From: Owenia fusiformis | Taxonomy: Eukaryota > Annelida > Polychaeta > Sabellida > Oweniidae | Direction: 5' to 3' | Length of the DNA: 64,000 nt | Assembly: GCA_903813345.2 (NCBI GenBank) | Contig: CAIIXF020000012.1 | Location: forward strand, 15,184,020 to 15,248,019 | Shown: piece by piece, positions 7,653 to 63,791 of the stretch | Numbering within the stretch: the stretch's first letter is position 1 | Layout of the letters: each line of letters starts with the position of its first letter | Notes under the pieces: model-generated | The model's input: the letters and a program-made list of their open reading frames with translations, nothing else | What the model was told of the DNA's origin: nothing | The model's database searches: none | Position numbers and translations under genes: made by a program

Positions 7653-7863
7653 CAGTAAAATCAGTTAAGTGGAACTCCTTTGGTACCACTTAAAAAGTAT
7701 TCTACTTGGGAGGTGTTCCACTTATAGAAGTTCATTTAACATTAAGTCACTTGGTCTCGGGACTCCAATAAGTGTTCCAATAACAGAGGTATTCCACCTC
7801 TACAGGTGTTCCACTTTACAGGCATTCCACCTCTACAGGTGTTCCACTTTACAGGTTTCACTT
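7653..7863. mobile_element. MITE with CAGTAAAA-type ends (pogo/Tigger-like), copy 1
   Basis: The ends are near-inverted: CAGTAAAATC on the left and ACAGGTTTCACTT on the right, with TA on both sides (7651-7652 and 7864-7865). The inside is a series of degenerate GGTGTTCCACTT-like motifs. Three more elements with the same ends and the same kind of inner motif occur at 40919, 58486 and 60567. The right end runs into the sulfotransferase gene and supplies its stop codon. Confidence 0.7.
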
Positions 7864-9297
7864 TAATAACTTATGCTCTATATTAATTCCTAGGCATTTT
7901 AACTGTGTGTAAAACCTTTGTAAAGCAAACTCATAAATCACATAGTCATCTGCCAGAAACTCTTTCATTAAAGCTATTGTATCATTACTCGGACGTAGTT
8001 TATTTTTAGCCACATTCATTTTAGGCATTCGATTGTTCAAATCCACTAAATCATTCCCAAATATACCAAATATTTTCTGTAGAGCTTCGATGCTTTCTGA
8101 AAAGTGTTCAAGTATTCCTAGAAATGTGTAATATTTTTCGATGTACTGCTTCGCTTTGTTGATATACGCATTTGTATGACCAGAGAACCATTCAATGTAA
8201 GGTTTAGGTTTGAAACAGTATTGTGGGCTCTCTTTCCTCGCATTAAGTAATAACTGTCGTTGGGCCGAATTACATCCTGTGGGCATATTACAACGGGCAC
8301 GAAAAATATTTGATCTAATTAGACAATCTCCAAGCTTGGTATTGATGTCACTGTCAGGAATATTATGCACCTTTTGTTGAAATCCAGATGACCTTGTAAA
8401 ATAATACAATGATATCCAACGTTCGAGAGGGTCCCGGAGAATATCGATGAACAATGGTTGTTTGAGATTAGAGTCTGAGAAATCAAGAAACTGTACATGT
8501 GTGGATATAATTGTCGGGATCAGATTGTCATTATTGGATGTTAATCCATTTAGGTATTTCTGGTATTTTTTCCGTGTTTCTTTTATCCCGAGTTTCAGTG
8601 TCATATTATGCTGGCTCATATGGTAGCATTTTTGTGTACGCAAACACGAATTTTCGAAAAGCTCCCTTAATGTTGTCCCACCACATTTTGGTATTTTACT
8701 GTATATTATGAGACGTTCATTACGGTATTTCGTTTCATACCCAGGGAGCATACATTGTAGTTTAAATCTCTCCTCACCGTCAACTTTCCTATCCTTTCTT
8801 CCATATAAGGGCATTTTTTCCCCAGGTCGTGACTGCTCTATTTTCTGATTCAATCTCTGCTCAACTTTCTTATCCTTTCTTCCATATAAGGGCATTTTTG
8901 CCCCAGGTCGTGACTGCTCTATTTTCTGATTCAATCTCTGCTCAACTTTCCTATCCTTTCCTCCATATAAGGGCATTTTTGCCTCAGGTCGTGACTGCTG
9001 CATTTTCAGATTCATTCCCTGCTTGTGTTCCTTTGCCCTTTTTGAAAGCTGTAGCTTATGCCATTGCTTATATTTAAATCTGCCTGGGTGTATAGCATTG
9101 TCCTTCCATTGTAAATGTATATAGAGAAACATATAAGATATACAGCAGCATGAGACAACTATCGTCAAGGTAAACAGCAAATATTGTTTAACATCCATTT
9201 TAACAGATTGCATAGAATGTTCAACTAAACTAAAGTCACCGCGGGTTATTATCCTCCTAGCAAAGACATTCGACTGAATTACACATTTTCGCTGCAA
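7858..9297 (-). CDS. Golgi type II membrane sulfotransferase (HS2ST/UST-like)
   Basis: This enzyme is predicted to move sulfate from PAPS to a glycan in the Golgi. It has an N-terminal membrane anchor (residues 39-62 of 479), a Lys/Gln-rich stem, and a catalytic domain with the 5'-phosphosulfate loop PKCGGTT (203-209) and the 3'-phosphate motif RDPLERWISLYY (288-299). These match the uronyl 2-O / heparan-sulfate 2-O sulfotransferase group; the exact substrate cannot be read. The stem contains three tandem copies of a 27-residue unit (81 bp, about residues 95-175). The coding region is one uninterrupted exon. Two starts are plausible: Met1 at 9297, or Met34 at 9198, which gives the short cytoplasmic tail typical of type II enzymes and is my preference. 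The last codon and the TGA stop fall inside the end of a MITE. Confidence 0.85.
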   Translation of the reverse strand: MQRKCVIQSNVFARRIITRGDFSLVEHSMQSVKMDVKQYLLFTLTIVVSCCCISYMFLYIHLQWKDNAIHPGRFKYKQWHKLQLSKRAKEHKQGMNLKMQQSRPEAKMPLYGGKDRKVEQRLNQKIEQSRPGAKMPLYGRKDKKVEQRLNQKIEQSRPGEKMPLYGRKDRKVDGEERFKLQCMLPGYETKYRNERLIIYSKIPKCGGTTLRELFENSCLRTQKCYHMSQHNMTLKLGIKETRKKYQKYLNGLTSNNDNLIPTIISTHVQFLDFSDSNLKQPLFIDILRDPLERWISLYYFTRSSGFQQKVHNIPDSDINTKLGDCLIRSNIFRARCNMPTGCNSAQRQLLLNARKESPQYCFKPKPYIEWFSGHTNAYINKAKQYIEKYYTFLGILEHFSESIEALQKIFGIFGNDLVDLNNRMPKMNVAKNKLRPSNDTIALMKEFLADDYVIYEFALQRFYTQLKCLGINIEHKLLK

Positions 9298-40687: not shown

Positions 40688-40772
40688 CATATAATCTGCA
40701 TTCTCCAAGAAACTCTCTCCATACTGCTCTGATATTTTTGGATGGCAAACCTCAACAATTATATCAGCATTT
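40688..40772 (-). CDS. ASPDH: ASPDH exon 3
   Basis: An 85-bp exon with acceptor TATTTCAG and donor GTAAGATG. It encodes ADIIVEVCHPKISEQYGESF and a short end, with the first base completing an arginine codon from exon 2. The donor is in phase 0 and points to further exons that were not found. Confidence 0.87.
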
Positions 40773-43700: not shown

Positions 43701-46700
43701 AAAATTGTCAGTTTTCAATGTTTTACTAACAACATTCCATGTCATGTCCTTTTTCTAAAAAGTTCAACAGTCATGCCTCCACTTTATCACATTTCATTCT
43801 GATTTTCTTTCTGATTTTTACAATATTTGGCAATGATTCTTGAAACGTAGACATTCCCTTTTCAATTGTAATGTGCATGGTTTTTTTCTTCTTTAATCTT
43901 TAGTGACTTTATATTTTATCAAATATCTCATTTTTATTATTATTATTAGATCACATGGTGAGCTTTTGCAATCGCTCACTTGTCCTTCTGTCTGTCCGTG
44001 TGTCAGTGCGTGCGTGCGTTCGCTGTCCGTCAACAATAGTGGCACGTTTTGAAACCTCCGTCAATAGGATTCCCATTTTAAGTTATTTTTGTTCAACATC
44101 AATACAGGAAACTCCCCTCTGACTACTGGTTCAAAAACTCGCCTATTTTCAAGATGGCCGCCATTTTTGTCTCGTGAAATTCATTTTTGACCCATTTCCT
44201 AGCTTTACAAATAAATGTAATGTCAGGTGTCCTACATTGTTGAAATCCAATGATGAAATAATTTTGTTACAAAAAATCAGAAAAATTATATCCGTTTTTT
44301 TATTTTCAGCCATTTTAGTTAACACTGATTTGTCCAGCTGTACTGTCTCGTGAAATCCACTTTTGGACCATTTGTGTTAAAATCTCTGTCGATAGGATTC
44401 CCGTTTTAAGTTTTTTTTGTTCAACATCAATACAAAAAACTCCCTTATGACTCTTGGTTCAAAAGCTCGCCTATTTTCAAAATGGCCGCCATTTTTGTTT
44501 CGTGAAATTCACTAGACTCTAAATATTTACTGTTACGTTCGAAACTAACAGAAAGTAAAAACAGCAATTAAAATATGATAACAATATATTTATACTTTGA
44601 AAACTAAATAATATAACAATAATATAAAGGAGGTTTAATACTTAAGTGATGTCCAATCAATGGTACGGCTTATTCTTGATGTCGATAAATGTCGTTGACG
44701 ATCCTTGAGAATGATCCAGATCACGAAATGTTTCAATAATCGTTAATAGTTCTCCAATGTTTGTAATAATCCAATAATGTTTGTTGTAATCCTCAAATGT
44801 TCTTATCCAATAATGTTAGATGATAATCCACAAATGTTTGATGATAATCCACAAATGTTTAATGATAATCCGCAAATGTTTATGATAATCCGTATATACC
44901 GTGTGTTGTAATATATGTCCATATAAAGTCCTCAGGTTGTATGTTTGCACTGTTATAAATGTTCCCACAGTAATTATCTGCTAAGAAGATGTCCTTTTGA
45001 TAGACTTTGAAATTCTGCTTTATTTAGTTCCTTTGAGATGTCCAGTTGATGACTTATAATTATCTGCTAATGAGAGTCACTGTGCTGTTCTTTTTATAAT
45101 GTGAAAGAATGATCCAGAAACGAATCTTCTGGAACTACATCTTGATTGGACATCTTTAGTGACATGATTAAATTTTAATGAATGGTTATAATTTCTAGAA
45201 CTATCTGGATGGTCAAGGGTTAATGAGTCATTCAGTTCAGTTTTGTTTACAAGATACAGTGTATAATGTCATTGTGACCTTGACCCAAGATCTCTAATAA
45301 AGAATAGCTCAACATATACAGCAAGCATACATTACAAGTTAAACTATAGGTGAATATAGTAGAATATAATATACATGTAGCTCACTACTGTAACACCTCC
45401 CTCCTTAAAAGAAAAGTTTTGAATGCAATGAAAAACTTTTACAATAATATCTTGAGTAGCGAGCGTTACAATTTTTAAAAGTGAGGTTGAGACTTACATA
45501 ATATTTGTTTACAATAGTCTTTTTATATGCAGTATGTTTACAAGTATATAATACTTTCTATCGTTACAGTATGAGTACAATCTAATAACATATAATGTTC
45601 TTATAATCCCATACTACAATAATATCTACATAAGTTATGCACTAAGTCATAAATACAATACACGCAATAGATCATATAACATGTACAATAGCATACATTT
45701 TTGAGTCTGACAAACACTAAACTAGTACAATGTTTTAAATTATCACATGATCTTATGTAAGTATTTCTAATAGTACACTCTGAGGTTATCAAGTAATCTT
45801 GTGACACTATTTAATGATCACCTATAATGCTCACATAATCTAGATACCATCTTATAGTTAATATAATATCAATTTCACTATTTAGGCAAATGTTTTGATT
45901 GTTAAAATAAAGTGACAGTTATCACAAATCTCTAATTTGCCTATCAAGTAATATAATCTTCATGAGTTAATCATTATAATTTACAATATCTGACTCTTGA
46001 ATAACATACATGTATAGTTGTCATTGACATACAAGTTTGGCCTATGAGCTAAGAGCACAAGCTCAAGTTGAGTAAAGAAATTTTATCACGCTCAACATAC
46101 TTTTTCATCATATTGATGTGACACAATTGTGTTTCTTTGCGCCTATCTGGAGTTTTGACAATATAATTGAGGTCATTGACCTTGGAATCCACTACATAAG
46201 GACCATAGAATTTTGCTTGTAGCGGATTTGTCTGAAGTGGCAGTAATATAAGAACTTTGTCACCCGGCTGGAAAGATCTTTCTTTGACTTTTCTGTCATA
46301 CCAAGTTTTCATTTTATCTTGGCTATTGAGCAAATTTTCTTTGGCTATTTCACAAGCCTTTGATAGGCGCTCTTTAAACCCAGTGACATAGTTCAATAAA
46401 TTAAACTTTTCAGTTTCTGTCAGCCACTTTTCTTTTAGCAATTTAAGTGGACCACGCACAGAATGACCAAATACTAGCTCAAATGGACTGAACCCTAAAG
46501 ATTCTTGCTTAGCTTCTCTTGTAGCAAACAAAAGCAAGGGTATGCCCTCATCCCAGTCTTTCTCATATTCAAAACAGAAAGCTCTAATCATGGTCTTAAG
46601 CGTCTGATGGTAACGCTCAAGAGCTCCTTGAGACTCTGGGTGATAGGCACTTGACTTACACTGTTTGATACCCAAGGTATCCATGACTTGTTGGAATAAG

Positions 46701-49700
46701 CCTGACATAAAATTTGAGCCCTGATCAGACTGAAGATCTTTTGGTAATCCAACTAAGGTGAAAAATTTGATGAGTGATTTCACTATGTTTTTGGCTTTGA
46801 TATTTCTAAGTGGAATCGCTTCTGGAAACCGTGTGGCCATACAAAGAATAGTGAGTAAATATTGATTACCAGATTTTGTTTTTGGTAATGGACCAACACA
46901 GTCAATAAGAACCTTACTGAATGGTTCATCAAATGCAGGTATAGGGTGTAAAGGAGCAGTTGGAATTTTCTGGTTAGGTTTCCCTACCATTTGACATGTA
47001 TGACAAGACCTACAATACTCTTGGACATCTTGTTTTAATTTGGGCCAATAGAAATGGTTGAGTATTTTATGGTATGTTTTAGTTACTCCTAAATGACCTG
47101 CCATAGGCGAATCATGAGCTAGACTCAAGATTTCCTTATGATATGATTTTGGGACAATAATTTGATGCACAATTGCCCAATCGTCTTCAGGGGAAGCTTC
47201 AGGAGGTCTCCACTTTCGCATTAATATGCCATCCTTTTTGTAGAAACAAACAGGGACCTTGTCAGCTTCATCAATAGTAAGACATCTTTTATGAAGATCA
47301 ATGAGTGATGGATCATGCTCTTGTTCATAAATTAACATGTGTTTAGAATGAGGATCATTTTTCAAAGAATCACTATCAGAAATAGAGGATGAAACCTCAG
47401 AACAAGGAGGAGATGAAACCTCATGAACACTAGCAGAAGAAGATGAAACTTCATCGGGACTAGCACGAGCGGGCGAAACCGCATTAAAATAGTGATCCTG
47501 CTCAGAAGGTGAATCACCCCTGGCAATAGGCTTTTTCAATGAAGAATATGCCTCATTAGATCGCTGCTTGGCTTGAACAATAGGCTGTTTCAATGAAGAA
47601 TTTGCCTTTAAAATAGGATAAGGACCATCTTTAACAAGTGGTGAGTGACATTCATCATCAAACAAGGAGCTTAAAAACCCACTATCAAAGTCATCTCCCA
47701 CAGACGAATCCCCGCTATTAGCTAACCTTTTAGCCATAGCCCTAGTAACAGCACAAGCAGGATATATATCAGAGTCCTCTTGGACAGAATCCTCAATAGA
47801 ACAAGGCTGATCAGAAACAATGGGGTCTAATGATACCTTACCCCCAGCTAAATCATTGCCTAAAAGCAATGCGACTCCTTCAACAGGAAGTTGTGGCCTA
47901 ACACCAACAATAACTGGCCCTTTGACTAACTCAGATGTGATATGAATACGATGGAGGGGAACTTTAGTAAATCCTAATTCAATGCCTTGCATCAAAATAT
48001 GGGTACCTGTGAATGACTCCTCAGATAAAGGAAGGACGCCTTCTAACAACAAAGTCTGAGATGCACCCGTGTCTCTAAGAATCTTAACAGGCTTTGAATT
48101 GGTATCATCACTTGACAGTGACACAGATCCTTCCGACATGAAAGGCTTATAATCCTCCATAATATCACTATGAGTAGATTTCTCAGTATGAGTATATGAA
48201 TCCCAAACAATGGGCTTTCTTGAAATGGGAACAGTAGCACAACCATTTGAATGAGCAGAACCAGACATCTCTCTTCTATTCTTAATCCTATAGCATTCAG
48301 AAATAAGATGACCAGGCTTTTTACAATAATTACAGGTGACATTTAATTTTGGACCTGAAGAATTTGATTGATCAGATTTTGAGCTAAAACTCTGTGATGA
48401 ATTAGACTGGTCTTTTGCTTTGTTTGGTGTATTTGATGATGAGGACTGGTTTGATTTTGTATCATATGAAGGTTTGTTACCTTGATAACCTCTAAAGTTA
48501 GGATTGCCCTTGATAAAACTACCCTTATGAGTAAGAGCATAATCATCAGACAGGGTGGCAGCTTGACTTAAAGTTTCTACCTTGTGTTCATCTAAGTAAG
48601 TTCTAATGTGATACTGAACACAGTTTTTAAATTGTTCTATTAGCATAAGCTCTCTGAGCTTTTTAAACTCTTCAGATACATCTTTAGAGACAAGCCACCT
48701 GTCAAAAAGCTGCTCTTGCTCTCGCGCAAATTCAACATGGGTTTGATCACTCTGTTTGTGGGCATTTCTAAATTTTTGTCTGTAAGCTTCTGGTACTAGT
48801 TCATAAGCTTTAAGAATTGCATTTTTAACTAGATCATAATCAGAGCATACTTCTCCAGAGAGAGAGGCAAATATTTCACTTGCTTTTCCAATAAATACAC
48901 TCTGGAGCATAACTGGCCATGCAGATTTAGGCCAGTCTAGGCTCTGAGCGACTTTTTCAAAATGTGTAAAGTATTTATCAACATTTTTCTCCTGAAATTT
49001 AGGTACAAATTTGAGAAATTTTGAAGCGTCAAACCTATTTTCAAAATGTTGATGCATAGTAGCATGTTCATCAGATTTGCTTTTAGCTTCTATTTCAAGC
49101 CGTTTTAATTCAATTTCTTTTTGAATTTCTTGTTCTCTTATTTCTTTTTCAATTTGCATTTCTTGTTCTCTTAATCTTATTTCTTTTTCACTCTCTCTTT
49201 TTTCTTTTTCATTTTGAATTTCTAATTCTTTTTCTCTCAATTCTCTGATTTCTCTTTCTTTTTGAATTTCTAATTCTTTTTCTCTCATTTCTCTTTCATT
49301 TTGCAATTCTTTCTCTCTTATTTCAAGCTCTTTAAGCTTAATAGGATCAACAGGGTCAACATGTTGGGCTGGCTGCTCAGGCAGAAGTGTTTCTGCGACC
49401 AAATATTGAAGAACAAAATTTTTAATTGTATCCTTTTTGTATGAGCTTTTGACTGACAGGCCAACATGTTTTGCAATTGCCAGAAGTTCAGTTTTCTTTA
49501 AATCATCAAATTCCTCCAAAGAGGGCGCTTCTAAAAATGTCTCAACCTCAAAACTCATTTTTCAATTAATTGCTGTCTTCACAGTTAAAATTTACAAGTT
49601 TTAGATTTTGAATTTTGAAATATTTGAATTTTAGCTTGTTGTAGTTGTATCCCGGACGAGCCCCCAATTTCTGTTACGTTCGAAACTAACAGAAAGTAAA

Positions 49701-52700
49701 AACAGCAATTAAAATATGATAACAATATATTTATACTTTGAAAACTAAATAATATAACAATAATATAAAGGAGGTTTAATACTTAAGTGATGTCCAATCA
49801 ATGGTACGGCTTATTCTTGATGTCGATAAATGTCGTTGACGATCCTTGAGAATGATCCAGATCACGAAATGTTTCAATAATCGTTAATAGTTCTCCAATG
49901 TTTGTAATAATCCAATAATGTTTGTTGTAATCCTCAAATGTTCTTATCCAATAATGTTAGATGATAATCCACAAATGTTTGATGATAATCCACAAATGTT
50001 TAATGATAATCCGCAAATGTTTATGATAATCCGTATATACCGTGTGTTGTAATATATGTCCATATAAAGTCCTCAGGTTGTATGTTTGCACTGTTATAAA
50101 TGTTCCCACAGTAATTATCTGCTAAGAAGATGTCCTTTTGATAGACTTTGAAATTCTGCTTTATTTAGTTCCTTTGAGATGTCCAGTTGATGACTTATAA
50201 TTATCTGCTAATGAGAGTCACTGTGCTGTTCTTTTTATAATGTGAAAGAATGATCCAGAAACGAATCTTCTGGAACTACATCTTGATTGGACATCTTTAG
50301 TGACATGATTAAATTTTAATGAATGGTTATAATTTCTAGAACTATCTGGATGGTCAAGGGTTAATGAGTCATTCAGTTCAGTTTTGTTTACAAGATACAG
50401 TGTATAATGTCATTGTGACCTTGACCCAAGATCTCTAATAAAGAATAGCTCAACATATACAGCAAGCATACATTACAAGTTAAACTATAGGTGAATATAG
50501 TAGAATATAATATACATGTAGCTCACTACTGTAACATTACATCCACCTGGGGCTACTGCCGAGTGGATATGACCCACACTGTATTGTTACCTTTCAGAAA
50601 ACTTGGACAAATCATTTAAGATAAGCCTTTCATCCAGTTTCTGTTGCATGGTTTCCTTAGATCTGTTCCAAACAAATGCAAGTTCTAATTCTGGTCTTGC
50701 TTGTATTTCTTCTACCAAGTATTGACCTGGAAGTATATGAAAGATTATAAGAGATCTGTTCCAAACAAATGCAAGTTCTAATTCTGGTCTTGCTTGTATT
50801 TCTTCTACCAAGTATTGACCTGGAAGTATATGAAAGATTATAAGAGATCTGTTCCAAACAAATGCAAGTTCTAATTCTGGTCTTGCTTGTATTTCTTCTA
50901 CCAAGTATTGACCTGGAAGTATATGAAAGATTATAAGAGATCTGTTCCAAACAAATGCAAGTTCTAATTCTGGTCTTGCTTGTATTTCTTCTACCAAGTA
51001 TTGACCTGGAAGTATATGAAAGATTATAAGAGATCTGTTCCAAACAAATGCAAGTTCTAATTCTGGTCTTGCTTGTATTTCTTCTACCAAGTATTGACCT
51101 GGAAGTATATGAAAGATTATAAGAGATCTGTTCCAAATAAATGCAAGTTCTAATTCTGGTCTTGCTTGTATTTCTTCTACCAAGTATTCACCTGGAAGTA
51201 TATGAAAGATTATAAGAGATCTGTTCCAAACAAATGCAAGTTCTAATTCTGGTCTTGCTTGTATTTCTTCTACCAAGTATTGACCTGGAAGTGTATGAAA
51301 GATTATAAGAGATCTGTTCCAAACAAATGCAAGTTCTAATTCTGGTCTTGCTTGTATTTCTTCTACCAAGTACATGTATTGACCTGGAAGTGTATGAAAG
51401 ATTATAAGAGATCTGTTCCAAACAAATGCAAGTTCTAATTCTGGTCTTGCTTGTATTTCTTCTACCAAGTATTGACCTGGAAGTGTATGAAAGATTATAA
51501 GAGATCTATTCCAAACAAATACAAGTTCTAATTCTGGTCTTGCTTGTATTTCTTCTACCAAGTATTGACCTGGAAGTGTATGAAAGATTATAAGAGATCT
51601 GTTCCAAACAAATGCAAGTTCTAATTCTGGCCTTGCTTGTATTTCTTCTACCAAGTATTGACCTGGAAAGTGTATGAAAGATTATAAGAGATCTATTCCA
51701 AACAAATGCAAGTTCTAATTCTGGTCTTGCCTGTATTTCTTCTCCCAAGTATTGACCTGGAAGTGTATGAAATTATTATAAGAGATCTGTTCTAAACAAA
51801 TGCAAGTTCTAATTCTGGTCTTGCTTGTATTTCTTCTACCAAGTATTGACCTGGAAGTGTATGATAGATTATAAGAGATCTGTTCTAAACAAATGCAAGT
51901 TCTAATTCTGGTCTTGCTTGTATTTCTTCTACCAAGTATTGACCTGGAAGTGTATGAAAGATTATAAGAGATCTATTCCAAACAAATGCAAGTTCTAATT
52001 CTGGTCTTGCTTGTATTTCTTCTACCAAGTATTCACCTGGAAGTGTATGAAAGATTATAAGAGATCTGTTCCAAACAAATGCAAGTTCTAATTCTGGTCT
52101 TGCTTGTATTTCTTCTACCAAGTATTGACCTGGAAGTGTATGAAAGATTATAAGAGATCTATTCCAAACAAATGCAAGTTCTAATTCTGGTCTTGCTTGT
52201 ATTTCTTCTACCAAGTATTGACCTGGAAGTATATGAAAGATTATAAGAGATCTATTCCAAACAAATGCAAGTTCTAATTCTGATCTTGTCTGTGTTTCTT
52301 CTACCAAGTATTGACCTGGAAATGTATGAAAGATCATAAGAGATCTGTCTGATGCATATCAGGGGCGTAGGAAGGTGTAAATGCAACACTACGCTAAAAA
52401 TCCCGCCAAAAAAATATGAAACAATTGTGTCAATATTCTATATCAAAACGCCTATATTATGCTTGTAAAACGTCATTTTATGGTAACAGAGATTTTAAGC
52501 TTGCAATGTTTTTCACAACCTAAATGTGAACGGAAATACTTAAGCGATGCATTTATATGGGCGATTGGTCATACGTATAGGTTGGCGTTTCGATTTTATA
52601 TGCAAGCTTTAAATCCCTGATACCTTTTTAATGTGCTTTAAAATGTTCGAATGATTTTCATCATTTAAAATCACCTTGGAAAGCCTATCTTTTAAATCTC

Positions 52701-54681
52701 GACACAAATCATTCTCACTTTGCTAATGTCTCGAACGATTGAGACGACCAATTTCCAAAAAAACAATTAGAGATTTTTTAATCATTTTCGAATAATTGAA
52801 TTAAGATATATAGTATTGTCTGATTCCATCGTGTACCGTGCAATACAATACGTACAGATTAAAGAAACTAGTTTGATCAATTGATATAAAGAAACGCATT
52901 CGTGATCAATGAAACAAATAAACACACCCACCACAAAGGTCAAATCGAGGTCAACGTGACTTAGGGGATGCCAAAAAATGTTATAAAACAAGAATCTATA
53001 ATTTTCAAATGAAAAAAAATAGGTAATCACTTTTCTAGAACTGAAACCAATGGAACGTGTAATTGAATAATCAGCATTTTCAAGTTGTTTTTGTCTTTAA
53101 CATCCATATTTCAAAAAGTACTACCAATAACAATTAGTGATTTAGTAAGAAAATAGATAATTGTTGACTTAACTATAATTTCGTGTCTATGATTTTGCAT
53201 AGCAACGGAATATAAATCGATAGTGCAATTGAAAAATTGGGGTAGGGGAGAATAAAAAAAATGTACATCTAAATTTAAAGAGGTTCATCATTATAATTAT
53301 ATGATACCATAGTTTGCATAAGCATTACGGAAAATGCAGAAAAAATGTCAAAGGTATTCATCAAGTAGTTTTTGAAAACAAAACAGTTTTCCTCTCAAAT
53401 TCGTGGAGAGAATGCGATTCACGAATATTTGGCAAAATTGTATTCATAAGACATTCAATAGTGGCTCGATTTTCATGAAATAAAGCATGTTGGTAAGGGA
53501 ATTCAATCTGTTAAATGATATTTTCCAGACAGACCAATAATGATATGGTATCCACAAAACATTTCTTTAGGCTAGTGTGCTCGAGATTACTTTTACAATT
53601 TTTGAACAATGAGAAAATATGACTAAAGAACATAGGAAAATTCTTTTTTATTCTCACTTTTCAACACTACACACTGGCGTTTTGGCGTACATTGTTCCTA
53701 CGCCACTGCATATCCCCTAAAATGTGTACATTTGTATATTTTAAATTTTATATAATACTCTCATCCACTGATGTATGGCCTCTTGAAAATTCTCTCATGT
53801 TTAACATCAGAAATCCTCACTTCAGCAAATCCGTGATTGTATCTATCTCATTACCTATAATAACTCTGGTAAACAAAAATCTCAGACTTAATTGTGATTT
53901 GGTGGTCTAAAATTCAAGTTCCAAATACATTTGATTGAAGTAGGGTAAATGTTTCCAAGATTTCTTACATTTTTGTAAAAGACCTTTAACATGTCTGGGA
54001 ATATCAAGATATGCATAGCCATCTATCAAAAGATGGCTATGTGCAAATATAGTAAGGTTTACTCTATTCTCTAATTGGCAATAGTTCCAATGTCATGTGA
54101 TCTTATATTCATTTAGATTCAATGAAGAGTTTTAGCAAAAGTTCATGACATATTGTAGAGCAACAACCCATTGAAAAATATCACATTAACTGTTTTCAAC
54201 AATCTCCCAAACAATTGATAATTTTTTTCAGAGTGTCTCCCATACCGACCGACATATATCAGAACTGGACCCTGCCCTGTGAGCATTTCTTGAAGTTTCG
54301 ACAAATGTTGTGAGCCTATCCTCACCTACTTTGGCCTGAGATGGAGAATCGACAGGATAATTTTTAAAAGAATATAATTTAAAGCCCTACATTTAAAAAT
54401 AGATCTATGATTTGGTTTCAACTCATTAAAAAATTGGACGGATAAAATACACTGGTGGCGACTGTCAGACCACATCGACATCCCCAAATGTATATCAGTA
54501 CTGCAGGGTTGTTGCTGTACAATGGGGACCCTTGTCATCTCCTAAACTCTGGGTCCTCTAAATAGAAAATAGATAGTGCTGACTGTGCACTGAAATTGGA
54601 CAACACAGTGAAAAATATAAAAGGATACACACCTAAACTGCCGAAACCAACCACACCGATCCTTCTTTTGTTGACATCCAT
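40688..54681 (-). CDS. ASPDH: ASPDH: aspartate dehydrogenase domain gene, exons 1-3 only
   Basis: Three exons on the minus strand (54681-54633, 50726-50591, 40772-40688) join in matching phases (1, 2, 0) and encode the first 90 residues of an aspartate-dehydrogenase-domain protein. It would be a cytosolic NAD(P)-binding oxidoreductase of about 280 residues in other animals. The Rossmann loop GFGSLG spans the exon 1-2 junction, ELAFVWNR is in exon 2, and DIIVEVCHPK spans into exon 3. All three exons have GT/AG borders. No exon for the remaining two thirds was recognised; downstream lie UGT pseudogenes and transposons, so the gene may be truncated. Introns contain an LTR element, a hAT-like element, a nested gene and the splice-site array. 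Confidence 0.85.
40919..41095. mobile_element. MITE with CAGTAAAACCTG ends, copy 2
   Basis: Left end CAGTAAAACCTGTCTTATG preceded by TA; right end AACAGGTTTTACT followed by ATA. The inside has GAACACCTG and TAAACACC motifs. It belongs to the same family as 7653, 58486 and 60567. Confidence 0.8.
41360..41519. repeat. GC-rich foldback repeat with TTCGGCACCG iterons
   Basis: The 16-bp arms TTCGACACCGTTTCGG (41360-41375) and its exact complement (41504-41519) enclose many copies of TTCGGCACCG or TTCGACACC in both orientations. The base composition is much higher in GC than the surroundings. No TSD was resolved. Confidence 0.85.
41859..42859 (-). CDS. Two-exon gene of unknown function, nested in ASPDH intron 2
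   Basis: Exon 1 (42859-42470) has 130 codons and ends at a good donor, GTAAGAAT. Exon 2 (41984-41859) begins after TATTTCCAG in the same phase (0) and adds 41 codons to a TAA, giving 171 residues. I do not recognise the protein. It has an acidic Glu/Lys-rich region (about 36-57), a conserved-looking middle with FGQNGIYTKSYCDMEYIL, and a basic helix-rich end. No signal peptide or membrane segment is seen. Matching phase and clean splice signals make it a likely real gene. It lies inside an ASPDH intron on the same strand, or downstream of a truncated ASPDH if that gene ends early. Confidence 0.65.
42860..44530. other. Gene-free stretch with a duplicated dispersed repeat
   Basis: No exon is seen. 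From about 43955 there is a dispersed repeat rich in GTCTGTCCGT. It contains two diverged copies of the same 120-bp segment (about 44065-44180 and 44390-44510), both with CTCGCCTATTTTCAA and ATGGCCGCCATTTTTGT. Confidence 0.6.
44531..45395 (-). repeat. 3' LTR (element on the minus strand)
   Basis: This 865-bp LTR contains a run of about five short repeats of the type ATGATAATCC(A/G)CAAATGTTT (about 44815-44895). It appears identical to the other LTR by eye. Confidence 0.92.
45396..46048. other. Short non-coding 3' region of the RT-less element
   Basis: On the minus strand this lies between the integrase stop and the 3' LTR. It begins at the LTR edge with a purine tract (AAGGAGGGAGG when read on the minus strand, 45396-45406). 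No reverse transcriptase or RNase H motif was found in any frame. Confidence 0.75.
46049..49558 (-). CDS. Gag-protease-integrase polyprotein without RT
   Basis: One uninterrupted frame of 1169 residues. From the N-terminus: a SAP-like region (about 15-53); a long Glu/Lys/Arg-rich coiled coil (72-165); a SCAN/capsid-like helical region (about 175-345); a CCHC knuckle (C409-C422); an aspartic protease with RDTGAS (495-500); a Ser-rich linker; and an integrase with an HHCC zinc module (from about 814), catalytic Asp at about 882 (LIDCVGPL), Asp in SDQGSNF (about 941), Glu in GALERY (about 977) and a C-terminal basic domain. In most Ty3/gypsy elements RT lies between PR and IN; in the Gmr1-like group IN comes before RT. 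The order here fits a Gmr1-like parent that lost RT downstream of IN. Such a copy would need RT from elsewhere. Confidence 0.88.
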   Translation of the reverse strand: MSFEVETFLEAPSLEEFDDLKKTELLAIAKHVGLSVKSSYKKDTIKNFVLQYLVAETLLPEQPAQHVDPVDPIKLKELEIREKELQNEREMREKELEIQKEREIRELREKELEIQNEKEKRESEKEIRLREQEMQIEKEIREQEIQKEIELKRLEIEAKSKSDEHATMHQHFENRFDASKFLKFVPKFQEKNVDKYFTHFEKVAQSLDWPKSAWPVMLQSVFIGKASEIFASLSGEVCSDYDLVKNAILKAYELVPEAYRQKFRNAHKQSDQTHVEFAREQEQLFDRWLVSKDVSEEFKKLRELMLIEQFKNCVQYHIRTYLDEHKVETLSQAATLSDDYALTHKGSFIKGNPNFRGYQGNKPSYDTKSNQSSSSNTPNKAKDQSNSSQSFSSKSDQSNSSGPKLNVTCNYCKKPGHLISECYRIKNRREMSGSAHSNGCATVPISRKPIVWDSYTHTEKSTHSDIMEDYKPFMSEGSVSLSSDDTNSKPVKILRDTGASQTLLLEGVLPLSEESFTGTHILMQGIELGFTKVPLHRIHITSELVKGPVIVGVRPQLPVEGVALLLGNDLAGGKVSLDPIVSDQPCSIEDSVQEDSDIYPACAVTRAMAKRLANSGDSSVGDDFDSGFLSSLFDDECHSPLVKDGPYPILKANSSLKQPIVQAKQRSNEAYSSLKKPIARGDSPSEQDHYFNAVSPARASPDEVSSSSASVHEVSSPPCSEVSSSISDSDSLKNDPHSKHMLIYEQEHDPSLIDLHKRCLTIDEADKVPVCFYKKDGILMRKWRPPEASPEDDWAIVHQIIVPKSYHKEILSLAHDSPMAGHLGVTKTYHKILNHFYWPKLKQDVQEYCRSCHTCQMVGKPNQKIPTAPLHPIPAFDEPFSKVLIDCVGPLPKTKSGNQYLLTILCMATRFPEAIPLRNIKAKNIVKSLIKFFTLVGLPKDLQSDQGSNFMSGLFQQVMDTLGIKQCKSSAYHPESQGALERYHQTLKTMIRAFCFEYEKDWDEGIPLLLFATREAKQESLGFSPFELVFGHSVRGPLKLLKEKWLTETEKFNLLNYVTGFKERLSKACEIAKENLLNSQDKMKTWYDRKVKERSFQPGDKVLILLPLQTNPLQAKFYGPYVVDSKVNDLNYIVKTPDRRKETQLCHINMMKKYVERDKISLLNLSLCS
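49649..49666 (-). promoter_or_regulatory. Primer-binding site, tRNA-Pro type
   Basis: Read on the minus strand, TGGGGGCTCGTCCGGGAT starts five bases after the 5' LTR. It is the classic sequence complementary to the 3' end of tRNA-Pro (AGG/TGG/CGG), used by several retroelements. Confidence 0.92.
49672..50536 (-). repeat. 5' LTR (element on the minus strand)
   Basis: Its outer end at 50536 lies 54 bp inside the ASPDH intron from the exon 2 donor at 50590. It is otherwise the same as the 3' LTR. Confidence 0.92.
50591..50726 (-). CDS. ASPDH: ASPDH exon 2 (the array-proximal, functional copy)
   Basis: A 136-bp exon that starts after ACTTCCAG and ends at a GTAACAAT donor. It encodes QYLVEEIQARPELELAFVWN followed by RSKETMQQKL and a stretch to SE, with split codons at both ends matching exons 1 and 3. 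Its first 67 or so bases are the template of the 18-copy array lying directly upstream. Confidence 0.9.
50650..52352 (-). repeat. 18-copy array of the ASPDH exon-2 3' splice site plus exon head
   Basis: The unit is 93 bp (31 codons). Read on the minus strand it consists of about 26 bases of intron end (CTTTCATATACTTCCAG, preceded by CTTATAAT) and about 67 bases of exon start (GTCAATACTTGGTAGAAG to TGGAACAGATC). The splice sites fall at about 50727, 50820, 50912 and so on to about 52316; the first is the real exon 2. Variants are a 6-bp insertion at about 51372 (frame kept) and a 1-bp insertion at about 51667 (frame lost). The 11 units nearest exon 2 form one open frame with it. At the far end ACAGATCT in the intron matches ACAGATCT in exon 2. 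Confidence 0.93.
52361..53706. mobile_element. hAT-like non-autonomous element, 1346 bp
   Basis: A perfect 8-bp target duplication, TGCATATC, flanks it (52353-52360 and 53707-53714). The ends are inverted: GGGGCGTAGGAA on the left, TTCCTACGCCAC on the right. It has no transposase. It lies in ASPDH intron 1, touching the outer end of the splice-site array. Confidence 0.88.
53715..54632. other. ASPDH intron 1, exon-1-proximal part
   Basis: No exon was recognised. A short hairpin with an 11-bp stem, CATAGCCATCT, and a 6-base loop lies at about 54015-54042. Two short minus-strand frames at 54143-54538 have no recognisable motif or splice signals. Confidence 0.5.
54633..54681 (-). CDS. ASPDH: ASPDH exon 1
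   Basis: Encodes MDVNKRRIGVVGFGSL plus one base, with a GTGTGTAT donor. GVVGFGSLG is the glycine-rich nucleotide-binding loop, completed by exon 2. The ATG at 54681 is taken as the start because the Rossmann fold begins right after it, as in the family. Confidence 0.85.
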
Positions 54682-58306: not shown

Positions 58307-61300
58307 ATGGCGGGAAAGAAGAAAAAGAAGTCGGGGAAGTTGGCCAAGATGACAGAGGAGGAAAGAATCTTATATCTTGAGCAACAGCGTTTAGCCGAAG
58401 AAGAAATGCGCAAAAAGAAAGAAGATATGTTGACCCAGTTTTTGAAAGTAAGTGAAAACTAATTTCCCTGCTCTAGATATGCATACAGTAAAATCTGTAT
58501 ATAGTGAACAGTCTGAACACATATGGAGCCACAAAAAAGTGTTTATTCGAGGTAGGTGTTCACTACAGAGAGGGTATTTATTTAGACAGGAGTCAATGTA
58601 AAATGTGCCTTGAAGAAGTGTTCACTAAACACAGGTGTTCACTATAGAGAGATGTTCATTTAGACAGGTTTTACTGAAGTTAGACAGTTGCCTTGCTGAA
58701 AGTTAATGAACACTCAATTGACAATGTTTCAGATATACCATTGAAACTAGGTGAAGTTAGAATCTTTAGTTATAGAAATTAGAGCACCTTGTATTTAGAT
58801 ATTAAATGATACATAATCTATTATCTTATTTTTAGGACAAGCTTGCCAAGGAAGAAAAGGCCTCTAGATTTAACCTGAATAAATTGAACAACCAATGGCG
58901 TAATATTATGAGAGAAGCCAAATCGAAAGAACTGAAGAAAGAAATCGAAATACTTAGTCAGACATTTGAACGAGTTGTTGACAGGAAGGAGAGCGTCATC
59001 AAGTCACTTGCCAAAGATTTGTTGGAGGCAGAAGAGCAATATTCAATGGCATTAAGAAGTCATTTACAAAATATAGATGGATTAATAGGTAAGTGATGCA
59101 AAAATTTGGACTTTCTAGTTTCAAGAGGGTCTGAGTATTAAGAGATAAATGTGTCTATAATATGTGCAGAGGTTAATATTAAAATCTCAGAACTTATTGA
59201 TCGACCTGGTACATGTAGTTTACATGATTGAATTATATTCAAACTTTTCCAAAAAATAAATGTAAGGTAATCTCAAAAAGGAATGAGGCTAAATCCTTAT
59301 TCTAACTAGTTTAGCTCAGTTGGTAAACTTATGCTAAAACAAGGTACACGAATAAATAATTTCATCTGTTGTCTCTTACGAGTGCATGCTGTTCAAAACA
59401 TCAAGAAAGTAGCTTAATTTCAAACACTAATCAAAACAACATTCCGTACCATCAAAATGATCAACATTACGTTCACAATTGAACATATCTTTTAGATCTG
59501 CAAAAACAGCGACTTCACACACTACAGGAAGAGTACCACGTTGAGCTTGATGTGCTGAAAGAGGAGTTTGATACTGAGCGTGAGATGATGATAGAACAAC
59601 ATACAAAGGAGATGACTGATCTGCAAGATGTTGTGTTTGCAATGGAGCAGAACAATCAGGAGAGAGAGACTGATGCTAAGGGAGAATTCCAGAGCATGCG
59701 AGATGAGATCAAAAACAAGGTAGCAATTGCATAATTGTGCATATCTCTTTGATTATGTGTGTCTTGATTTTTTATATGCAAAAAATAAAATATCATAAAC
59801 CATACATGTGGGCAGTTTAAATCTTATTAGATTCTGGAATGTAAAAGTAAAACCCACAAAGGTATCAGTTCCTTTATATTTATTGACTCTTCATTATAGA
59901 ATCTAGAGGAGAAACATGCTCTCAGAGTCCAGCTTGAGACTGCTGTGGAGGACCTTTGGTACCAGTTCTAACGTTCCTTTATTATTGCCTCTATTGTAGA
60001 ATCTAGAAGAGAAACATGCTCTCAGAGTCCAGCTTGAGACTGCTGTGGAGGACCTTTGGTACCAGTTCTAACGTTCCTTTATTATTGCCTCTATTGTAGA
60101 ATCTAGAAGAGAAACATGCTCTCAGAGTCCAGCTTGAGACTGCTGTGGAGGACCTTTGGTACCAGTTCTAACGTTCCTTTATTATTGCCTCTATTGTAGA
60201 ATCTAGAAGAGAAACATGCTCTCAGAGTCCAGCTTGAGACTGCTGTGGAGGACCTTTGGTACCAGTTCCAACATTCCTTTATTATTGCTTCTATTGTAGA
60301 ATCTAGAAGAGAAACATGCTCTCAGAGTCCAGCTTGAGACTGCTGTGGAGGACCTTTGGTACCAGTTCCAACAAGCACTGAAGAACTACAATGAGACAAC
60401 TGAGGAAAGGAAGAATGCATTTGAACAACTCAAGCTCAAAGATGAGAAAAGTGCGAAAGAGATTGAGATGCAAATGAGAAAATTACAGCGCATTGCAGTA
60501 AGTGTTATAACCACATTAGGCCATTTAAACTTAAATATATATTGAACTGTTTTTTAAATGTTATTACAGTAAAACCTGCGAACAGGGAATGCTCTTGGGA
60601 CTGGAGGAAAGTTTCCTTGTTCAGAGGTTTTCCCTATAGAGAGGGGCTGCACTTTCAGCAAACTCAAAATTGCCGAATAAGCATATTTGTATATATATTG
60701 ATTGATTGTACAAATGCCGACTCCATACTTGTTTACGTTCTCCCCATGTTGATTTTAGCTGCTTCTAGCGTCTGATGATGTCTAGTTGATCAAAGATCAT
60801 TGATATGCTGTGTACATATATATTGCTAAGAACTGAAATTCAAGTTTCATCAACCCCATTTTATATCATTTATAATCTGGAAGTTGGATCAGTAAAAGAT
60901 TTAAAGAGCTTTGGCTCAACATGACCATGTACTTACTATCTGTTATCTCCATAAAACAATTGTGTCAGTCCCTAGATTATCACAACTGATTTGATGTAAG
61001 TAGGTTTTTGAAAGGAAAAATTGGTGTCATGATAATAAGTAACAAACAGATTAGTATTAGTTTTAAAATAAATCAAGGTAATTAACAGTGGGTGGGATGC
61101 TACATCATGTCAACAATTGGCTTATCTTAATCTCAGTCATATTAATCCAAGCTTTTTGGAATCAGATATTGGCTTAGACTTTCACACCTCTGAAAAATAA
61201 TGGAATACACAGTGTCACCAATATTCCATATTCCTTGTTCACAGGTGAATTTTCATATATTGCCCCAAAATAGTGTTCCTTGTTCCCTGTTCATAGGTTT

Positions 61301-63791
61301 TCCCTACAGAGAGGGTCCGTTAACATGTAAGTCAATGGAAAAATATTTGGTTCTTTTGAAAAGCATTCCTTGTTCACAGGTTTTCCCTACAGAGAGGTAT
61401 TCCATCGGACAGGTTTTACTGTATATGTCTCCCTCCTAAGATTTTTTGATGTACTTTTTTGATGGATTCAAATGAAAATTAAAACTTATAAATTGTCATG
61501 TATAGATTTGATTATAATGAAAGGAAAACCATACATTTTCTTCAGTATAAAATACAATTTTTTTTCTCAGCATTGGTGTCCGTTACAATTGCTACAATTT
61601 TTCCAGGTGATGACATTTTGTCATGTTATGCATTGGTAATAAATCCTGGATTTTCTGCTCTTCTTTAGGACCACATTGCCCAATTAAAATCCAAGATGAC
61701 TGCCAATGCAAAAGAATGCGAAGAGCGCAATAAACAACTTCGGGAAGAACGAGAGATGATGCAGGCTCATTTCCAACAGCTTAAGGGTCAGATGAATAAA
61801 TTACGTGAAATTGAACGTGAAAAATTAACCAAACTAACACTTGAGAGCAATACTGCCATCAAGGAATCAAAAAGGAAAGCTGAAAAGGTGAGATGTAAAC
61901 AAATATATAGTGCAGAGATACTATACTATACTCTGTTTCTATATAAATGTAAAATAAAAGTAAAATACCATAAGTTGGGTTAAATTTCATTGGCGACTAC
62001 TCTTATTCTTGTTGGATTTTGTGAACATTTTTTAATTCAGTATACATGTATTAACATTGTCACTGGATATTGATTGAGATTTATACAGATTTTGTGAATC
62101 CTCAAATAAAGTGAGCATTTAAATAAAGCAATTAACAATAATAACAGAGAAGCATGTCAAGCTTTCCCAGAATGTTACAGTATAGCCCATGCAGTGTTTT
62201 GTTTATGAATTTTTGTTTTTTATTATGAATTAAATTTAACTTAAACATGGAATTACCTTATATTCGATATCATTTCTAGGGTGAGAGAATTCTACGATTA
62301 GCAGAAATGTGTCGAAAAATGGAGACAGAGGAGGAAAAAGTTTTGCCGTTTTATGCGTCATCTTTGACGGAGGAAGAACAAGGGGATGTTGAAGCTGCCG
62401 TCACTGAGGCTCCTTCTGAACCTTTGGCAGCTGTAAGTTTTTCAACCAATTCTTTTTAGCCAGTTTTTTTCGTTTTCTAATTAAATCTGGTGAAGGCTTT
62501 AATATCTCTAAAGCAAACAAAATATCTTATCTATCTCCAACTCTACCAATAGTAGTGTACAGGTCATTACCTAATTTTTATTCAAGTTAATGCAATTTAG
62601 AACATGTGTACATGTAATTCAAAACAGATTTCATTTAAATGTACTTTATTACTTGTTAATTTTCTCTTTTCCACTCTATTTTGCATTTCAAAACATGACC
62701 CCATTTTCACATTTCACATTATTGTGATATTTCCATACAATTTGATGGATTGACTTTATATCTGTGTACTTTGTTCCATGGAAATTTCGCTCTTTTCCAC
62801 AATATTTTGCATTTCAAAACATGACCCCATTTTCACATTTCACATTATTATGATATTTCTATACAATTTGATGGATTGACTTCACACCTGTGTACTTTAT
62901 TCCATGGAAATTGCGCTCTTTTCCACTCTATTTTGCATTTCAAAACATGACCCCATTTTCACATTTCACATTATTATGATATTTCTATACAATTTGATGG
63001 ATTGACTTCACACCTGTGTACTTTATTCCATGGAAATTGTGCTCTTTTCCAATCTATTTTGCATTTCAAAATTTAACCCCATTTTCGCATTTCCTCATCA
63101 TACATAAATCTATTCCAGGTGATGCATGAATACACATCATTAGAAAACTTCTGGAAGCGCTACAATAAAACCCTACTAGACAAAGTAGCATTGGATAAAG
63201 AAAAATCAACTCTTTTAAATGAAAATACGACCCTCCGTACGTTACTGAAACAATACTTAGATGGTATATCTGTGAATGATGAGATCTTAAGCCAAGTGAA
63301 TCCACTGTTTGTAGTCAACCAGAAAACCAATGTAAAGTAAGTAGGATGCTCTGCCATTTTGTTAAGTCTACAGTTGTAAAAGAGAAGTTCAATGCATAGA
63401 AGTGAAATAAATCAGATACTGCTGAGTGCACATCATAAAGAATTCAAGGCAATTGACCAAACAATTCAATTCTTGTGTTATGTTCCTTTACATAGATCAG
63501 GCTAGAGCAATAACCCCAACTATGCATAAGCACTGGATGTTTTTTTCCATGAAATAACATTTAACTTGTCCGTAATCTAACTCTGACAAGTTGGTATGAA
63601 ATCTATAGGAGTCATAGGAAGCGCGCTCTGTATACAATGCCAACCAATAAATATCATAACATTAATAAATGATACATATTCTACCATTTGTTTTCAGATT
63701 GAATGTACCAGTTCATGACCCAAGAGTACAGAGACCATCAAAGACAGTTGTAGAGGCTGCTCATGTAGTGCAACATATTCTACCCTCATAG
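58307..63791 (+). CDS. CCDC65: DRC2/CCDC65, dynein regulatory complex subunit 2, eight exons
   Basis: Encodes a 499-residue coiled-coil protein of the nexin-dynein regulatory complex of motile cilia and flagella, about the length of its vertebrate counterpart. Exons: 58307-58447, 58836-59088, 59496-59719, 60300-60497, 61669-61887, 62280-62432, 63119-63336, 63698-63791. All introns have GT-AG borders and the phases (0,1,0,0,0,0,2) join without a break. Recognisable family stretches are [20 protein letters not shown] in exon 2, EEKVLPFY in exon 6, NFWKRYNK and [20 protein letters not shown] in exon 7, and [10 protein letters not shown] near the end. Intron 3 holds four extra copies of the exon 4 head, introns 1 and 4 hold MITEs, and intron 6 holds a 126-bp satellite. 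The start lies in a Lys-rich N-terminus ([11 protein letters not shown]). Confidence 0.95.
58486..58676. mobile_element. MITE with CAGTAAAA ends in DRC2 intron 1, copy 3
   Basis: Left end CAGTAAAATCTGTAT preceded by TA; right end AGACAGGTTTTACTG. The inside shows GGTGTTCACTA(C/T)AGAGAG three times. Same family as 7653, 40919 and 60567. Confidence 0.85.
59868..60370 (+). repeat. Five-copy, 100-bp array of the DRC2 exon-4 3' splice site plus exon head
   Basis: The exon-4 start AATCTAGAAGAGAAACATGC preceded by an AG acceptor occurs at 59900, 60000, 60100, 60200 and 60300, an exact 100-bp period. Only the last continues into the full exon. Each unit is about 30 bases of intron end plus about 70 of exon head. 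Copies 1-3 end in TTC TAA in the exon frame (for example 59969-59971), and that same TTCTAAC resembles a branch point for the next copy. The intron before copy 1 has GGTATCAGTTCC (59868-59879), nearly the same as GGTACCAGTTCC in the exon (60358-60369). Confidence 0.95.
60567..61421. mobile_element. 855-bp element with CAGTAAAACCTG ends in DRC2 intron 4, copy 4
   Basis: Left end CAGTAAAACCTG preceded by TA; right end GGACAGGTTTTACTG followed by TA. The inner motif GTTTTCCCTA(C/T)AGAGAGG occurs near both ends. It is the longest and best-bounded member of this family here and has no recognisable transposase. Confidence 0.85.
62681..63118. repeat. 126-bp tandem repeat in DRC2 intron 6
   Basis: Units start with TTGCATTTCAAAA at 62681, 62807, 62933 and 63059, an exact 126-bp period. 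The last, partial unit runs into the exon 7 acceptor at 63118. Confidence 0.93.

Follow-up and report, generated by a model that had tools for sequence, protein, structure and literature searches.

An 18-unit tandem array spanning the junction of intron 1 and exon 2 in an aspartate dehydrogenase gene of Owenia fusiformis

The host gene and its surroundings

The window analysed here, a stretch of 64,000 nucleotides from the annelid Owenia fusiformis, contains the first three exons of an aspartate dehydrogenase (ASPDH) gene and a tandem array located over the border between intron 1 and exon 2 (Table 1). The exons were located using P0001, an O. fusiformis protein of 278 aa deposited at NCBI as an ‘unnamed protein product’, which was retrieved when a hypothetical product carrying the repeats served as query in a protein search. 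Exon 1, exon 2 read from the acceptor adjoining its body (acceptor 1) and exon 3 encode exactly residues 1–90 of P0001, with a single copy of the array unit present there; the junctions of exons 1–3 are of the AG/GT type and their phases match. P0001 comprises the NAD_binding_3 and Asp_DH_C domains, and the exons found in the window match NAD_binding_3. The identity of the gene, its exon 2 and the phase 1 junction had been proposed in a preliminary description of this DNA, and all three are borne out by the tblastn search and the splice junctions. We infer that P0001 is made from the window locus and that it derives from the RNA-seq-guided Owenia gene set of PMC9977687.

Mobile DNA flanks the array on both sides. 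In intron 2, an LTR retrotransposon has a single long ORF in the direction of ASPDH, and its two LTRs are 99.9% identical (one difference in 869 aligned positions). The ORF (46049–49558, minus strand) encodes SCAN and integrase domains; neither reverse transcriptase nor RNase H was found at E ≤ 0.001 in either of the two pieces of this ORF. The element may have been mobilised by the enzyme of another element. In intron 1, on the outer side of the array, there is an insert of about 1.3 kb resembling a DNA transposon.

Regular expressions built on motifs detected no ASPDH exon beyond exon 3 in the window. A tblastn search of P0001 against the window gave, outside exons 1–3 and the array, only matches with E values of 1.2 or worse. 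With the C-terminal parts of eight of 120 proteins as tblastn queries at E ≤ 1, the sole match in the window was the end of exon 3. The window is free of unknown bases, so either intron 3 is longer than 40 kb and contains other genes, or the ASPDH locus is cut off. Positions 1–40687 contain what we take to be UDP-glucuronosyltransferase-like ORFs, on both strands, together with retrotransposon-like ORFs.

These surroundings would also allow a reading in which exons 1–3 are a truncated, dead copy of ASPDH, and the array would have been free to grow since the copy is unexpressed. The negative search for a C-terminal exon in the window (eight query proteins, E ≤ 1), the downstream ORFs that we presume to be UDP-glucuronosyltransferase-like, the recent LTR element in intron 2 and the transposon-like insert in intron 1 are all consistent with it. 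However, the exact agreement with an annotated protein over residues 1–90, through AG/GT junctions in matching phase, argues against it. Moreover, no second Owenia protein occurs among the 120 of 586 matches listed, the next match belonging to another species at 64%. A dead copy is thus possible but rather doubtful.

Table 1. Features of the ASPDH locus and of the array in the window
Feature	Position	Strand	Remarks
ASPDH exon 1, from ATG (MDVNKRRIGVVGFGSL and first base of Gly)	54633..54681	-	Donor TAG/GTGTGT, phase 1; tblastn of P0001
DNA-transposon-like insert, intron 1, about 1.3 kb	52361..53707		Starts 14 bp from the array; inverted copies of GGCGTAGGAA close to the ends, GCATATC beside both (ends read by eye)
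AGATCT in intron 1	52341..52346	-	Outer border of unit 18; one side of the microhomology pair
18 tandem units, each with 31 bp of intron 1 tail and 62 bp of exon 2 head	50665..52346	-	Unit 18 starts at 52346, unit 1 extends to 50665
Exon part of unit 11	51601..51662	-	No acceptor farther out is in frame with exon 2
ASPDH exon 2 from acceptor 1, 136 nt	50591..50726	-	Donor AAG/GTAACA; tblastn of P0001
AGATCT within exon 2	50659..50664	-	19th in-register copy; other side of the microhomology pair
LTR retrotransposon, intron 2	44531..50536	-	54 bp from the exon 2 donor; long ORF in ASPDH direction; TTAC next to both ends (by eye)
ASPDH exon 3	40688..40772	-	Donor ATG/GTAAGA; last of the exons located; tblastn of P0001

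Architecture, variation and origin of the array

Minisatellites are built of head-to-tail units of about 10–100 bp with high identity and vary in copy number between individuals; in its unit structure, the array is of this kind. Tandem Repeats Finder assigns to it positions 50659–52348, a period of 93 bp, 18.1 copies, 96% matches and a score of 3105. Along the minus strand, 19 in-register AGATCT hexamers between 52346 and 50664 delimit 18 intervals, fifteen of them 93 bp long, two 94 bp and one 99 bp. Each unit combines the tail of ASPDH intron 1 (31 bp; 32 bp in units 11 and 12) with the head of exon 2 (62 bp; 68 bp in unit 8). Real exon 2 matches the unit over 68 bp when the shared hexamer is included. 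All 18 units have one CAG/GT acceptor, and the first exon bases at these acceptors run from 52315 (outermost) to 50726 (real exon 2). A branch candidate of the YTNAY type (CTTAT) lies 22 or 23 bp upstream of the acceptor in every unit, and 11–13 of the 17 bases at positions −20 to −4 are pyrimidines, followed by CAG. The preliminary description had reported 18 tandem 93-bp units with a plausible branch sequence, a pyrimidine stretch and a CAG acceptor, each carrying ‘67 or so’ bases of exon 2; the repeat search, the 19 borders and the 18 acceptors agree with this anatomy, and the length of the exon match is close to that given.

Individual units are tagged by 16 distinct substitution variants and three indels. 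Eleven of the variants fall in the 62 exon positions and five in the 31 intron positions (Fisher p = 1.0). The in-frame exon variants comprise three synonymous changes, seven replacements and one stop, the synonymous share expected under neutrality being 0.24 (transition weight 2; p = 0.73). Every one of the 18 units retains AG/GT, but 16 variants would spare these four bases with a probability of 0.49. The three events that break the frame all lie in units 11–18, which has a probability of 0.088, or 0.19 when identical units are counted once. The pattern of variation looks neutral and selection is not required to explain it, although the numbers are small enough for weak selection to be undetectable.

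The same variants bear on the accuracy of the assembly. Units 1–5 are identical over all 93 bases and the array is represented in one assembly, so its copy number might have been inflated or even invented. The substitutions and indels tagging the units argue against this, as does the length of the reads if the window comes from the published assembly: according to excerpts of PMC9977687, the read N50 of the Owenia PacBio data is 25.75–30.75 kb, exceeding the array many-fold. An artefact is therefore very improbable.

The borders of the units suggest how the array may have arisen. In a single unit, one AGATCT lies in the intron and a second, 93 bp away, in the exon, and the borders between units coincide with this hexamer; the AGATCT pair is likely to be the birth scar of the array. 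One tandem duplication between the two hexamers would have copied a complete 3′ splice site together with the exon head, and unequal exchange or slippage could then have raised the copy number to 18. Variants at positions 23, 34, 57 and 93 of the unit recur in non-adjacent units, a pattern such as unequal exchange or conversion would give. Since units 1–5 are identical, and the outermost unit 18 has the most substitutions (seven relative to the consensus), amplification looks most recent beside the exon; the latest round would have taken place at the exon end of the array.

Reading frames, acceptor choice and the protein product

The reading frames were examined for all 18 acceptors, each taken as the junction with exon 1 and continued into exon 3. 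Acceptors 1–11 leave exons 1–3 open and add 0–10 extra repeats of 31 aa (plus 2 aa once unit 8 is included), whereas acceptors 12–18 lead to premature stops. The frame is broken by a one-base insertion in each of units 11 and 12 and by a TGG to TAG change in units 13 and 14. In the consensus unit, a second frame has no stops either, and a 159-aa ORF is listed in it; therefore, the open frame is no sign of coding. It is explained by a period divisible by three, set by one 93-bp birth event, and by recent amplification. Selection for the frame was considered and rejected: the proportions of change are neutral, and the birth event together with recent copying accounts for the frame.

The preliminary description had pointed to an open frame over 11 units, with a 31-codon period and 0–10 extra repeats, and had suggested that the array might be a cassette tuning splicing or protein length. 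The frame itself holds for all 11 units, and so does the caution, expressed at the same time, that a frame-neutral period might reflect chance or recency, as the 3n period and recent copying suffice without selection. The cassette, by contrast, found no support beyond this open frame. In its protein form, use of acceptors 1–11 would yield enzymes with 0–10 extra 31-residue repeats after the glycine loop; the eleven in-frame acceptors and the period of 31 codons are what speaks for it, and this is the open frame again.

Three protein searches bear on such products. The queries were a 214-aa sequence with extra repeats, the 355-aa ORF of the array and a 108-aa sequence with three copies; candidate lengths were about 118–374, 195–621 and 60–189 aa, respectively, and in the 214-aa and 355-aa searches scoring was confined to the 8000 candidates with the most words in common with the query. 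The searches gave 586 (120 listed), 19 and 17 matches; repeat content was judged by coverage, and five sequences were inspected. The best match in the 214-aa and 355-aa searches was the single-copy P0001, which was also the sole Owenia protein among the matches listed. None of the matches listed looks repeat-bearing, the maximum query coverage being 41%, 14% and 51% for the 214-, 355- and 108-aa queries, which is approximately what one copy allows. The 355-aa ORF also gave no confident fold (mean pLDDT of 49 in an AlphaFold2 model made without an alignment), there is no excess of synonymous changes and the second frame is equally open. Taken with the lack of repeat-bearing coverage among the listed matches, this makes the production of lengthened enzymes highly unlikely.

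Two Pfam families matched by the repeat ORF, PNPOx_N (41.1 bits, exceeding its cut-off) and DUF3136 (below its cut-off), were dismissed as repeat artefacts, since none of the stretches passes alone. The RNA structure predicted for three units showed nothing special (z = −0.58), and a search of the window against Rfam at the gathering threshold gave no matches.

The single-copy mRNA is probably real. As stated in parts of PMC9977687, the Owenia gene models were derived from RNA-seq data with StringTie, Trinity, Mikado, Augustus and PASA, 99.29% of filtered transcripts are RNA-seq-supported, and models overlapping repeats were removed. Short-read gene models can miss long isoforms, and longer ASPDH forms are possible.

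On balance, the array is probably a minisatellite that is young and effectively neutral and spans the junction of intron 1 with exon 2, with splicing usually settling on acceptor 1. Exon definition favours the 136-nt exon starting at acceptor 1 because no unit but the last adjoins the remainder of exon 2 with its donor. The spliceosome would usually join exon 1 to this acceptor, reached either directly or by re-splicing, and the other 17 copies would be discarded as intron, leaving the ordinary 278-residue enzyme. Acceptor 1 is expected to be used almost always. The birth mechanism, the usual acceptor and the lack of benefit are what we infer in this account. As an alternative to a cassette, the preliminary description had mentioned a neutral satellite that splicing must ignore, and this fits better: the Owenia product among the matches listed has a single copy, the substitutions are neutral in pattern and the frame can be open without selection.

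Re-splicing deserves separate consideration, as the array might act as a ladder for recursive splicing. Joining exon 1 to an upstream acceptor would regenerate a donor (CAG/GTCAAT or CAG/GTGAAT), which would be spliced onward to acceptor 1; wrong choices would be corrected and the mRNA would be the same as after direct use of acceptor 1. Acceptor and donor are juxtaposed as AG/GT in 18 of 18 units, as in the intronic ratchet points described in excerpts of PMC8605326, which are juxtaposed acceptor and donor sites. By a simple count, the candidate donors of the units have seven of nine consensus matches in 16 units and eight of nine in units 6 and 15, and each of the three real donors in the window has seven of nine. 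However, the candidate donor has no G at +5, and 16 units also lack a purine at +3; it loses one more match after joining to exon 1, which ends in TAG. The GTGAAT common to units 6 and 15 amounts to a single change among variants of neutral appearance, such a donor sequence at the start of the real exon would risk skipping of exon 2, and the GT at the start of exon 2 is inherited rather than evolved for recursion. Routine recursion through the array is consequently regarded as unlikely. If it did operate, an expanding repeat in a coding gene would erase itself from the mRNA and be tolerated at any length and in any frame.

A cost of the array under direct use of acceptor 1 is suggested by experiments on beta-globin. 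In vitro, splicing to weaker duplicated 3′ splice sites was inefficient and used the distal site only; a single pre-mRNA can have two alternative 3′ splice sites occupied at the same time, and this is inhibitory to splicing (PMC5389562, in part). By analogy, a modest loss of splicing efficiency from the competing acceptors is likely in Owenia. A stronger form of this idea is that the 17 extra 3′ splice sites serve as decoys, binding U2AF and U2 snRNP and slowing the removal of intron 1, so that ASPDH output falls with copy number. The inhibition by concurrent occupancy and the near-equivalence of the acceptors in sequence agree with it, but the variation is neutral in pattern and shows no trace of selection favouring or opposing the array, and we consider a copy-number-dependent decoy improbable.

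Comparison with known systems

Like minisatellites and VNTRs in general, the Owenia array has a short unit (93 bp) of high identity, arranged head-to-tail, with variants interspersed among the units; unlike them, its unit straddles a splice acceptor and an exon head.

The nearest precedent found is the potato RdRp gene, in which a segment covering the end of intron 1 and the beginning of exon 2 was duplicated in tandem, giving rise to a new intron (Ma et al. 2016, PMC4974935). The duplicated segment in potato, as in Owenia, spans the intron 1/exon 2 border with the branch site, pyrimidine tract and 3′ splice site, but potato has two copies and Owenia 18. In potato, the upstream exon copy contains a cryptic GTAAG donor, which is employed; the new intron takes 10 nt of that copy, and most of both exon copies remain in the mRNA. 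In the known Owenia protein, by contrast, only the copy adjoining the exon body is present. The Owenia array would then be an event of the potato type taken to 18 copies, and its additional copies appear to be discarded with the intron.

Intron gain through duplicated AGGT-containing segments (Rogers 1989), including the case of ATP2A1 (Hellsten 2011), and fission yeast genes in which multiple 24-bp AGGT repeats are spliced across are also mentioned in the excerpts of PMC4974935. These systems share with Owenia tandem AGGT units, a donor and an acceptor in each period and repeats that can be spliced out. Their segments are exonic, whereas the Owenia unit includes an existing acceptor and a new intron is not needed. 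The duplicated beta-globin constructs are similar in that a single 5′ splice site is faced with competing, complete 3′ splice sites; they are artificial and have two sites, whereas the Owenia array is natural and has 18 (PMC5389562, in part). The ratchet points of Drosophila recursive splicing share with Owenia the acceptor placed directly against the donor (AG/GT). According to excerpts of PMC8605326, however, they are well conserved, located mostly in long introns and accompanied by a cryptic exon, and the likeness of the Owenia units lies in the AG/GT sequence alone.

A search of open-access literature by titles and the beginnings of abstracts, which is weak evidence of absence, found no multi-copy array over a splice acceptor. 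Set against the two-copy precedent of potato (PMC4974935), what seems new here is an 18-copy array over a splice acceptor. The array is a natural experiment on the choice of a 3′ splice site: units 1–5 are identical over 93 bases and, therefore, only position and downstream context can decide among them. The acceptor used would separate rules based on proximity, on the first site transcribed and on exon definition. The array also bears on how a gene can persist while a repeat expands across one of its splice sites and, with its probable birth scar, on how border-spanning arrays can start.

Several other arrays are present in the window, with periods of 81, 100, 126 and 290 bp among others according to Tandem Repeats Finder, and tandem duplication is thus common in this DNA. 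Two of them, at 59880–60372 (100 bp, 4.9 copies, 97%) and 62664–63093 (126 bp, 3.4 copies, 94%), have consensus sequences unlike the 93-bp unit by eye. Three copies of the 81-bp repeat (27 codons), at 8780–9023, are in frame within an uninterrupted ORF (7858–9297, minus strand), ahead of a sulfotransferase domain; this is a second frame-neutral duplication in the window, located within coding sequence.
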